Source of the DNA: a virus
IMG/VR virus record: IMGVR_UViG_3300020470_000030
Coordinates: 1-46,397 of that record
Strand: one strand, 5' to 3'
DNA length: 46,397 nucleotides
Position 1 is the stretch's first letter, and each line of letters begins with the position of its first letter. Positions 14,387 through 17,102 of this stretch are shown here, one piece after another. Below the pieces are notes generated by a model. The model worked only from the letters and a program-made list of their open reading frames with translations, was not told the DNA's origin and did no database searches. A program made the translations under genes and the position numbers.

Positions 14387-14555
14387 CGTTAACTAATGAT
14401 TCCACTTTAGTTTTCACATTTTCCATACATGTTGTCACATCCTTATGGGATCCTGTTATTTGATAGGAGTCTTTACCATCAGGTGAATATCTTCTTGTAA
14501 ATAGTGACCATCTCCACTCATCCATGTCAGCGGAGTACCAGATGTGAACACGCAT
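14379..14555 (-). CDS. Small hypothetical protein
   Basis: A 58-residue protein if it starts at the ATG at 14555; an in-frame GTG at 14591 would run into the 3' end of the tmRNA and is less likely. It contains a Trp/Tyr-rich beta-strand pattern (RVHIWYSADMDEWRWSLFTR) and a helical C-terminus. A TATAAATG element lies just upstream (14564-14571), perhaps too close to drive this exact start. No family recognised. Confidence 0.5.
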   Translation of the reverse strand: MRVHIWYSADMDEWRWSLFTRRYSPDGKDSYQITGSHKDVTTCMENVKTKVESLVNDV

Positions 14556-14563
14556 TTGCTTTA

Positions 14564-14571
14564 CATTTATA
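14564..14571 (-). promoter_or_regulatory. Late promoter-like TATAAATG
   Basis: TATAAATG on the minus strand, one base from the T4 late consensus TATAAATA, between the end of the tmRNA and the small gene at 14555. It could drive the small gene and the DUF6445-like gene, although it lies only 8 nt before the ATG chosen for the former. Confidence 0.35.
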
Positions 14572-14591
14572 TAGGGGCATTTCACCCCCAC

Positions 14592-14879
14592 GGATCAGTT
14601 GGGTAACAAGGTTGATCTAAACCCCGATCTCACCTTAGGCAGGAACCATTTCGGTTCTGCGTGAGAATTCTCTCGACATGATGCGAGAGAACGCTACGAT
14701 GTTATTCGCAGCAGTGTCAGATGGTTTTGCATCTGTGGTTTGCTCATCCGAGCAGGTTTCAGTCATGTTCCTTGTACCCTGTCGAAACCTTGGCACCCCC
14801 TTGCAAAGGTGGAGGTGAGGGGAGTCGAACCCCTGTCCAGAATATAGGTGACACCACCTACATGCCTTTTAAAGTCATG
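14592..14879 (-). ncRNA. ssrA: Circularly permuted (two-piece type) tmRNA
   Basis: Transfer-messenger RNA that rescues stalled ribosomes by adding a degradation tag. The acceptor piece comes first: a T-arm AGGGG-TTCGACT-CCCCT at 14818-14836 (minus), then CACCTCC (14811-14817) and ACC. A short spacer follows, then the coding piece starting GGGGGTG (14794-14800), which pairs with CACCTCC to form the acceptor stem, followed by the tmRNA hallmark GGTTTCGAC. This 3'-before-5' order is the permuted form of marine picocyanobacteria. The tag frame runs 14709 to 14635: it begins ANNIVAFSR, as cyanobacterial tags do, is 24 residues long, and ends RTEMVPA then TAA. A hairpin with loop GAAAT (helix 5-like) precedes the stop. 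Outer ends are approximate; the gene fills the gap between two proteins. Confidence 0.88.
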
Positions 14880-15422
14880 CTAAGGACTGAGATATACATT
14901 ACCAGCAATTGTACTACCTTTTCCACCACTCAGGACAAAATGTTCAACAAATGATGGAAAAATTATTATATCACCAGTATGTAGTTCGGGTCTCCAATCC
15001 AGACCAAAAAACTCTGGATTGGATGCGAAGAGGTGTCCGTAAACCTCCATCTGTGATTCTACACGATATCTGTAAGGATTCAAGAAAACCGTGCGAGATA
15101 TGTCCACATCCTCATAAACGATAAAACTCCACTGAGAACCACAGTGTTGATGTGGGTCTTGGAAGTCGGCATCACTAACATAAGTATTCCTCCATATATC
15201 ATCTATCCTTGCGGCAGAGTATGGGATACCTAATGTATCAATATTCTTAGAAATAACTTGTGATAAGTGGTTGATCGTACCTTCACTTACTGTCCTTGGA
15301 CATCCAAAACTTGAATAGATACCAGATCTAAAGTTAGGTTTCTGTTCTTCTTCAACAATACTTATCTGTTTGAGGTCTACCTTATCAGTAAAAAATGGAA
15401 TAGCAAAGAAACTATGCTTCAT
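14880..15422 (-). CDS. 2OG-Fe(II) oxygenase-like protein (paralogue of 15805-16365)
   Basis: A 180-residue protein with ARIDDIWRNTYV, then H91-Q-H93 followed by SQWSFIVYED, an RPELHTGDIIIFPSF strand, and H161 in FPSFVEH. This is the TIGR02466-type jelly-roll order: iron ligands on the H-x-H strand and in FPSxxxH. The final strand reads TIAGNVYLSP with no Arg where 2OG is usually anchored, a change shared with its paralogue, so co-substrate binding may differ. The ATG at 15422 overlaps the upstream 49-codon gene by 11 nt. Its stop abuts the tmRNA. Confidence 0.8.
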   Translation of the reverse strand: MKHSFFAIPFFTDKVDLKQISIVEEEQKPNFRSGIYSSFGCPRTVSEGTINHLSQVISKNIDTLGIPYSAARIDDIWRNTYVSDADFQDPHQHCGSQWSFIVYEDVDISRTVFLNPYRYRVESQMEVYGHLFASNPEFFGLDWRPELHTGDIIIFPSFVEHFVLSGGKGSTIAGNVYLSP

Positions 15423-15561
15423 CCTTTTTAACTGGTTTCTCATTCAATACTGGTTTACCAGTCTGTTTAGCAATAAAGGCAGCAAGTTCTGGAGTTTCTT
15501 CCCATTCCCAAATGGTCTTACGTCCCTTCTTATCTACTTGTTCCCAAGTTCTTTTAACCAT
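15412..15561 (-). CDS. Small Trp/Lys-rich protein
   Basis: A 49-residue open frame from the ATG at 15561, overlapping its upstream neighbour by 8 nt and its downstream neighbour by 11 nt, which fits the coupled arrangement of the region. The protein starts MVKRTWEQVDKKGRKTIWEW and continues with a helix ELAAFIAKQTG and a basic tail. Function not recognised. Its clean fit between two genes is the main support. Confidence 0.6.
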   Translation of the reverse strand: MVKRTWEQVDKKGRKTIWEWEETPELAAFIAKQTGKPVLNEKPVKKDEA

Positions 15562-15804: not shown

Positions 15805-16365
15805 TTATTCAATGAATTGATCGTCTGGGTGTTGGTGGTACTTCATGTATATATTACCAGAAATTGTAGTACCTTCATTTCCGGCATTAACCTGATGCAT
15901 TATAAATGATGGGAATATAATTATATGGCCTGGTGGTAGTTCAGGTTTATAATCTAAGGGAAAATCACCCAAACCACTTGAGATTTGATTCTGAATCAAT
16001 CCCATATTGGGGTTTATAAATGAAGTCTTAGAAGTTACACTCTCATATACAATGAAACTCCACTGAGAATGTGGATGCAAATGTACATCTTGATAATGAT
16101 GTTTTTGATATCTATTTCTCCATACATGACCTACCTTTGCATCATGACCAAGTAATCCTGCAGGACCTAAGTTCCTTTGAATTACTAACTCAAGTTCATT
16201 CCATGCTTCATCAGGTAACATTAACTGTGTACTGAAAGTAGATGGAACACCAGCATCCCATGTAGGTTCAAGTTCTGATGGATCCTCTTCTGGAATATTA
16301 AATCTATCCAGATCTATTTCATCCTCAAATATAGGAATACCAAAAATATACTTACGGTTCATCAC
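15805..16365 (-). CDS. 2OG-Fe(II) oxygenase-like protein (paralogue of 14880-15422)
   Basis: A 186-residue protein that aligns over its length with the protein at 14880-15422: xFxIPxFxDxIDL at the N-terminus, GHVWRNRY, then H95-L-H97-P-H99 with SQWSFIVYES, PELPPGHIIIFPSF, and H157 in FPSFIMH. The last strand reads TTISGNIYMKY, again lacking the expected Arg. The pair probably arose by local duplication, with the coiled-coil gene, the 49-codon gene and possibly the tmRNA between or beside the copies. Substrate unknown. Confidence 0.8.
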   Translation of the reverse strand: MMNRKYIFGIPIFEDEIDLDRFNIPEEDPSELEPTWDAGVPSTFSTQLMLPDEAWNELELVIQRNLGPAGLLGHDAKVGHVWRNRYQKHHYQDVHLHPHSQWSFIVYESVTSKTSFINPNMGLIQNQISSGLGDFPLDYKPELPPGHIIIFPSFIMHQVNAGNEGTTISGNIYMKYHQHPDDQFIE

Positions 16366-16397: not shown

Positions 16398-17102
16398 TCA
16401 AGTATCCTTTTCATTTGGTGGTAATGGCACTTTCCTCATAAATTTATAAACTAACGTCGCTCTAAGACCACGATAGGTTTCATTAGGAGGATTACCATGA
16501 TGAGGTATATTTCCTTTAAAGAAACATACTCTGCCAGGTTTAGGAGGTACTTCTATCCACTCATCATTGAGTAAAATCTTTGTACTTCCACCCCAGTCAT
16601 CATACCATGTTTTGTTGACATAGTAAACAAAACTTAATCCGTTATCACACGGACAGTCTTGATGTGGAAATGTATGGTGAATCCACTGTTGTCCATTCAC
16701 TAAGATCTCACCTATCTCCATATCAAAATCAATACTGTTTATCACAGCATCCATTATCATTTTGAAACATCCATCATTAGAATGAGGAGATTTGCCAGGA
16801 AAAATTTGTTGTTTTAATGCAGCAACCTCTTTCCATTCTGGATCTGCACCTATATCATGTCCATCTGTTGGATAATTACTGGTATGTCCATAGAACCACC
16901 CGTAACTATTCATGATTAGATCATCAACATAATGTATGAAATAATCAGGAAATAGATTATCAATCACAAAGACTTGATCCTCAGCAAGATTATACTGAGA
17001 GAAATCGAGTTCTTGAGTATGGAGATCAATGTAATTCATTTTCACTAATACCGAAGGATTCGATGCATTAATTTCTGTAGAAGAATGTAGTCTTGATACC
17101 AT
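16398..17102 (-). CDS. 2OG-Fe(II) oxygenase, prolyl-hydroxylase-like
   Basis: A 234-residue protein with FPHQD (H147, D149) as the iron motif, NGLSFVYYVN, WGGSTKI, PGRVCFFKGNIPHHG with H201/H202 as the distal ligand, and R214 in RGLRATLVYKF as the 2OG anchor. This is a complete catalytic set. The ATG at 17102 shares TAATG with the stop of the 543-residue structural gene, so it is probably translated from the same late mRNA; an internal ATG at 17039 is possible. The tight coupling to a virion gene suggests that it may modify a tail protein, which is inference. Confidence 0.85.
   Translation of the reverse strand: MVSRLHSSTEINASNPSVLVKMNYIDLHTQELDFSQYNLAEDQVFVIDNLFPDYFIHYVDDLIMNSYGWFYGHTSNYPTDGHDIGADPEWKEVAALKQQIFPGKSPHSNDGCFKMIMDAVINSIDFDMEIGEILVNGQQWIHHTFPHQDCPCDNGLSFVYYVNKTWYDDWGGSTKILLNDEWIEVPPKPGRVCFFKGNIPHHGNPPNETYRGLRATLVYKFMRKVPLPPNEKDT

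Follow-up and report, generated by a model that had tools for sequence, protein, structure and literature searches.

A doubly extended tag reading frame in a cyanobacterial-type tmRNA gene of a T4-like cyanophage

What is to be made of a cyanophage tmRNA gene whose tag frame is nearly twice the length of those of picocyanobacteria and ends in Pro-Ala? The gene lies in an IMG/VR virus fragment from a T4-like cyanophage, here called the window, meaning the whole stretch of 46,397 nucleotides that was analysed. A preliminary description had called the tag unusually long, and this holds: picocyanobacterial tags have 16 residues, and the tag predicted here has 31.

ARAGORN and two Rfam models concur in a permuted, two-piece tmRNA gene of the cyanobacterial type (Table 1). 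RF01851 matches positions 14574-14895 with 129.6 bits (E 5e-35), above its gathering cut-off of 70 bits and over the whole model (1-288); RF04321 matches the locus with 84 bits. The sequence reads as an alanine-type acceptor stem, GGGGGUG/CACCUCC, with a G.U third pair and a TUCGA T-loop (GGGGUUCGACUCCCC). A third pair of this kind is a feature of alanine tRNAs and tmRNAs. The putative resume codon is an alanine codon, GCA at 14730, with A at position -4, and helix P5 encloses the tag end and stop codon, its basal helix being 100% paired with compensatory changes. The gene is a genuine, conserved variant of the cyanobacterial-type tmRNA in which the tag is doubly extended.

Table 1. Features of the tmRNA gene, in window coordinates
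Feature	Position	Strand	Evidence
Permuted two-piece tmRNA gene	14544..14899	-	ARAGORN; RF01851; RF04321
Acceptor piece of the tRNA-like domain (T-arm and 3' acceptor strand CACCUCC), first in gene order	14811..14844	-	RF01851 alignment; sequence reading
Short intervening sequence ACCTTTGCAA, acceptor piece to 5' piece	14801..14810	-	Comparison with relatives
5' piece of the tRNA-like domain (GGGGGUG...; third pair G.U)	14775..14800	-	Pairing in sequence
Pre-tag hairpin UGCUC/GAGCA, also in the RF01851 consensus; 10 nt ahead of the proposed resume codon	14741..14754	-	RF01851 alignment
Proposed complete tag frame, AKPSDTAANNIVAFSRIMSREFSRRTEMVPA and stop, 31 residues	14635..14730	-	ARAGORN; A at -4 in 59/59
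N-terminal extension AKPSDTA, 7 codons	14710..14730	-	Relatives with ANNIDTA; indel-free in 52 distinct sequences
Hairpin H_up, AGAUG-CAAAAC-CAUCU, around the proposed resume codon	14719..14734	-	Covariation
Hairpin H_core, GCUGCGA/UCGUAGC, inside the ANNIVA codons	14693..14712	-	Paired in 52 distinct sequences; double synonymous changes
Conserved core ANNIVAFSR	14683..14709	-	pN/pS 0.02; host tags
8-codon insert IMSREFSR with second copy of the FSR segment	14659..14682	-	Alignment of short-tag relatives; tree
Insert hairpin UUCUCUCG/CGAGAGAA (8-bp inverted repeat)	14668..14691	-	Conserved pairing; shuffle test
Helix P5, UCUCAC (second FSR copy) with GUGAGA just past the stop; apical hairpin over the last seven codons	14628..14666	-	Covariation
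C-terminal segment RTEMVPA and stop codon TAA	14635..14658	-	Translation

Among isolates, the window is closest to the T4-like Synechococcus phages S-SSM7 and S-SSM6a, which are 81% identical to it across the tmRNA. Their tmRNAs share with it the gene position near a tail fiber gene, the 31-residue layout and the helices, but differ in the tag end, DELVTA, and in P5, UUGCCC/GGGCAA versus UCUCAC/GUGAGA. In both records the tmRNA is unannotated; the small hypothetical proteins CYVG_00208 and SSSM7_025, probably spurious, are annotated across it (L002:2590-2751 and L003:2533-2751, respectively). Upstream of the tmRNA in the window are three minus-strand genes (14880-15443, 15805-16365 and 16398-17102) that are 2OG-Fe(II) oxygenase-like by weak to moderate Pfam matches.

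The picocyanobacterial two-piece tmRNA (RF01851, cyano_tmRNA; host tag, e.g., ANNIVRFSRQAAPVAA) is likewise permuted, and it has in common with the window gene the tRNA-like domain, the pre-tag hairpin, the A at -4, the ANNIV-FSR motif and a P5 across the stop codon. It differs in its 16-residue tag, with neither extension nor insert, in a P5 formed on the sole FSR copy, and in its VAA end. Could the long tag nevertheless occur in hosts? A sample independent of the tag was drawn by an RF01851 search of 201 genomes from the family of Synechococcus WH7803, 171 of which gave matches; 71 loci were fetched and ARAGORN made a call in 70, three calls being clearly false. All 70 readable tags are of the 16-residue ANNIV/ANKIV kind, sharing the core with the window as ANNIV/ANKIV-FSR, and 68 end in VAA, as had been stated for cyanobacteria at the outset; the other two end in GAA and VLA. 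Tags of 16 residues were also found in 115 hosts identified by pattern. A long tag in host ssrA, which the preliminary description had considered, is thus rejected for the hosts of both samples. A second RF01851 match in the WH7803 genome (862708-862935; 153.6 bits), with no ARAGORN call and part of the gene seemingly missing, may be a remnant that a mobile element left behind (L412).

Pattern scans of IMG/VR and a phage collection yielded 129 phage tmRNAs of the cyano type; their tags are 14 to 32 residues long and come in 50 different sequences. When the window tag is aligned with those of other phages and hosts, the long frame appears in related phages: the same extended frame is present in about 30 records, S-SSM7 and S-SSM6a among them. 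It might be supposed that the frame and its VPA end are an assembly artefact or pseudogene drift, and VPA does occur on one contig only. This is scarcely credible given the recurrence of the frame in those records and two isolates, the preservation of the helices by compensatory changes, and the comparison with L043, the closest relative in our tree, whose tag is separated from that of the window by six substitutions, with no indel. The sequencing slip envisaged earlier is excluded and the long tag is real, because it is common to a whole lineage of ocean phages.

Where does the tag begin? The 24-residue frame first described, 14635-14709 on the minus strand, is present, its translation is ANNIVAFSRIMSREFSRRTEMVPA, and it ends in VPA; its start, however, most likely lies further upstream, at 14730. 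ARAGORN picks as resume codon a GCA seven codons upstream of the GCG in the ANNIV frame, which gives the layout AKPSDTA-ANNIVAFSR-IMSREFSR-RTEMVPA. The A four bases before the resume codon is a nearly invariant frame determinant, and mutating it abolishes activity (PMC2481249). Among 59 distinct extended phage sequences, an A at -4 precedes the upstream GCN in all 59, GCU in 20 and GCG in none (34 T, 25 C); in the 11 phages that lack the extension it always precedes the ANNIV codon, as it does in 115 of 115 hosts. The spacing from the pre-tag hairpin is 10 nt to the upstream codon in the window versus about 11 nt in hosts. Since the -4 pattern and the spacing both fit the upstream codon, we infer that the tag is very probably AKPSDTAANNIVAFSRIMSREFSRRTEMVPA, with GCA at 14730 as resume codon. 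For S-SSM7, tag peptides beginning AKSSDTAANNIV are predicted if the tag has 31 residues.

Two observations speak against this start. The H_up hairpin surrounds the proposed resume codon and would need opening, and a helix at the resume codon has been suggested as inhibitory in the E. coli A86C mutant (PMC2481249). Also, codons 2-6 of the extension lack constraint at the peptide level (pN/pS 0.97 over all extended phages). Both would suit a functional tmRNA that resumes at the GCG (or GCU) by ANNIV, the conserved beginning of host tags, with a tag of 24 or 25 residues and a heptad that serves only as a covarying RNA hairpin. We regard that reading as improbable, since neither stop codon nor frame change occurs across 52 distinct sequences, ARAGORN chooses the upstream codon, relatives carry ANNIDTA upstream as a second copy of the tag start, and the -4 base favours the upstream GCN throughout.

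With the upstream start preferred, the tag carries two additions. The first, the N-terminal heptad, is found in 109 of the 129 phage tmRNAs, with no indels in 52 distinct sequences. In several relatives ANNIDTA stands directly ahead of ANNIVAF, and so the tag start was probably duplicated in tandem long ago to give the heptad. Phages S-CAM1, S-CAM3, Sf-FS3 and AG-345-P14 share the heptad and the ANNIV core with the window but are without the second addition, their tags having 21 or 23 residues and a VAA or ATA end.

The second addition is the 8-codon insert, which duplicates the FSR/P5 strand, occurs in about 30 records counting the window, and is absent from short-tag cyanophage tmRNAs (AFSR-ILTREFAR-TDELVTA versus AFSR-TRELATA). 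In a tree built from the tmRNA parts outside the tag, all insert carriers form one clade (23 rows, SH-aLRT 96), with rows L017 and L022, whose TREFATA tags have no insert, left out of the long class. The earlier suggestion that the inverted repeat marks an inserted sequence is thereby borne out. Because the insert defines one ocean-phage clade that includes S-SSM7, the length cannot be put down to a sequencing error or to inheritance from the host; by these comparisons the long tag is a lineage feature of ocean phages, and a private anomaly is excluded. Four other loci (L040, L065, L068 and L047) have different insertions of 5 to 8 codons at the same tag site (e.g., PFSKVAKRDLVAV and PVSPVRTRELALA), apparently independent of that of the long clade, with tags of 28-31 residues.

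How do these additions fit the folding of the RNA? The coding stretch (117 nt) folds into four hairpins at -45.9 kcal/mol, z -6.15 versus dinucleotide shuffles. H_up is kept as AGAUG/CAUCU or AUCUG/CAGAU, and as a shifted GAUG/CAUC in the ANNIDTA and AKDIDTA groups. H_core is 100% paired in 52 distinct sequences, an invariance that is partly a sampling effect because most sequences were found by a pattern fixing part of the hairpin; the varying ones came from other patterns. In 13 sequences GCU..GUA is replaced by GCA..GUU, a covarying pair that is synonymous on both sides. The 8-bp inverted repeat described earlier is exact (arms 14668-14675 and 14684-14691). When the bases of the tag are shuffled, 1.4% of the shuffles contain a repeat like it, and when the codon order is shuffled 2.4% do, which is weak evidence taken alone. 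Across 16 distinct related sequences 91% of cells in this insert hairpin are paired; compensatory changes are absent, so that its support is one of conservation.

In P5 the FSR codons pair with bases past the stop codon, and all long-clade sequences use the second FSR copy. The long clade has three versions, UCUCAC/GUGAGA, UUGCCC/GGGCAA and UCUCCC/GGGAGA, 100% paired and with three double-changed pairs; five versions occur across all phages. Judged from this covariation, P5 is relocated to the second FSR copy with its pairing kept.

Selection on the peptide is uneven along the frame. The pN/pS ratio is 0.02 for ANNIVAFSR over all extended phages, and 0.34 for the insert and 0.76 for the C-terminal segment in the long clade, ratios that are rough because base pairing also constrains these codons. 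Variation in codons 7-13 is almost purely synonymous. On these figures the ANNIVAFSR core is maintained for its peptide, and the last codons seem to be shaped largely by P5.

The gene's other variable region is its intervening sequence. In 22 related phage tmRNA genes it holds a complete tRNA gene, tRNA-Tyr(GUA) in 15 and tRNA-Asn(GUU) in seven. The window's nearest relative, L043, has a nested tRNA-Asn at L043:2703-2778 on the minus strand; the other loci are L031, L035, L036, L042, L046, L064, L082, L084, L085, L350, L351, L355, L370, L371, L379, L387, L390, L394, L395, L406 and L407. No nested tRNA was found in 114 plus 70 host tmRNA genes. For a 2025 tmRNA database of 97,179 sequences one nested tRNA is reported and described as unique, a tRNA-Ala from a nominally archaeal genome (PMC11915505). 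Processing of the nested tRNA may be what cuts the two tmRNA pieces apart; the window's ACCTTTGCAA could be the remnant of such a tRNA, since lost, or the state preceding its gain.

What would the altered ending do? VPA occurs once among the 129 phage tmRNAs, on the window contig; L043 has VTA. The window tag thus lacks the C-terminal Ala-Ala of the ClpX degron. The same insert occurs in relatives together with the ends VTA, ATA or VAA, and tag length and ending are therefore separate matters. In the E. coli tag, substitution of the final or the penultimate alanine increases KM for ClpXP and leaves Vmax almost the same (PMC7652416), and by analogy VPA and VTA tags would probably bind ClpX more weakly. 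In a group of viral contigs (L318-L347; e.g., L318, L320, L319 and L322) the cyano-type tmRNAs lack the extension and the tags end in ALV, VSV or VLV, so that even the last residue is not the host alanine.

The preliminary description had suggested that the altered end could stabilise tagged proteins or send them to another protease. Tagged proteins may indeed escape ClpXP or be diverted, giving rescue without degradation or a fate chosen by the phage, but we think this less likely than not. It is compatible with our preferred reading, which concerns the nature of the RNA, and has some points in its favour, as the host VAA has become VPA here and VTA, ATA, ATV, ALV or VAV in relatives, the E. 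coli data point the same way, and long mycoplasma tags are degraded via Lon instead (PMC9382460). However, many phage tags, some of them in the long clade, still end in VAA, and length is not tied to loss of the ending. The extended tags of Mycoplasma and Mesoplasma resemble the present one in being longer than usual with an altered end, but their NYAFA motif and their use of Lon are not applicable to the window: its tag end, EMVPA, lacks the motif, and, Lon being absent from most cyanobacteria (PMC7966870), recourse to that protease is unlikely.

Neither SmpB nor ClpP was detected in four complete relative phages or in the window, and the lack of a phage ClpP counts against diversion. Both proteins would then be supplied by the host, or, as the window is a fragment, possibly be encoded elsewhere in the phage. 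Other marine phages such as Melnitz also carry a permuted ssrA, but one of the alphaproteobacterial type (PMC9004378).

On the whole, we think it likely that the gene is a working phage copy of the host two-piece tmRNA, with a 31-residue tag that grew by two additions, used together with host SmpB and ClpXP. During infection of Synechococcus, alanine would be loaded onto the phage tmRNA, host SmpB would accompany it into stalled ribosomes, and the tag would be appended starting from GCA at 14730. The tag would have grown in frame by the N-terminal heptad and by the 8-codon duplication of the FSR/P5 strand, each bringing a small hairpin, and P5 would have re-formed on the second FSR copy. ANNIVAFSR would be held by peptide selection, and much of the C-terminal variation, the VPA change included, would fall within a helix that must stay paired. 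The tagged protein would probably still go to host ClpXP, perhaps with lower affinity than one bearing a VAA tag. A bolder proposal, which we hold to be rather doubtful, is that cyanophages lengthened their tags by duplication and retuned the ends away from Ala-Ala so as to keep rescue while escaping or slowing host ClpXP, bringing trans-translation under phage control.

Host tags are nearly constant, whereas the phages vary length and ending freely and keep ANNIVAFSR and the helices. The phages thereby offer an example of a coding stretch that grows by duplication with base pairing retained. The annotation of phage records misses or shortens such tmRNAs and their tags. Together the tags of these genes, from 14 to 32 residues in length and with the endings VAA, ATA, VTA, VPA, ATV or ALV, are a natural set for testing the role of the tag during infection.
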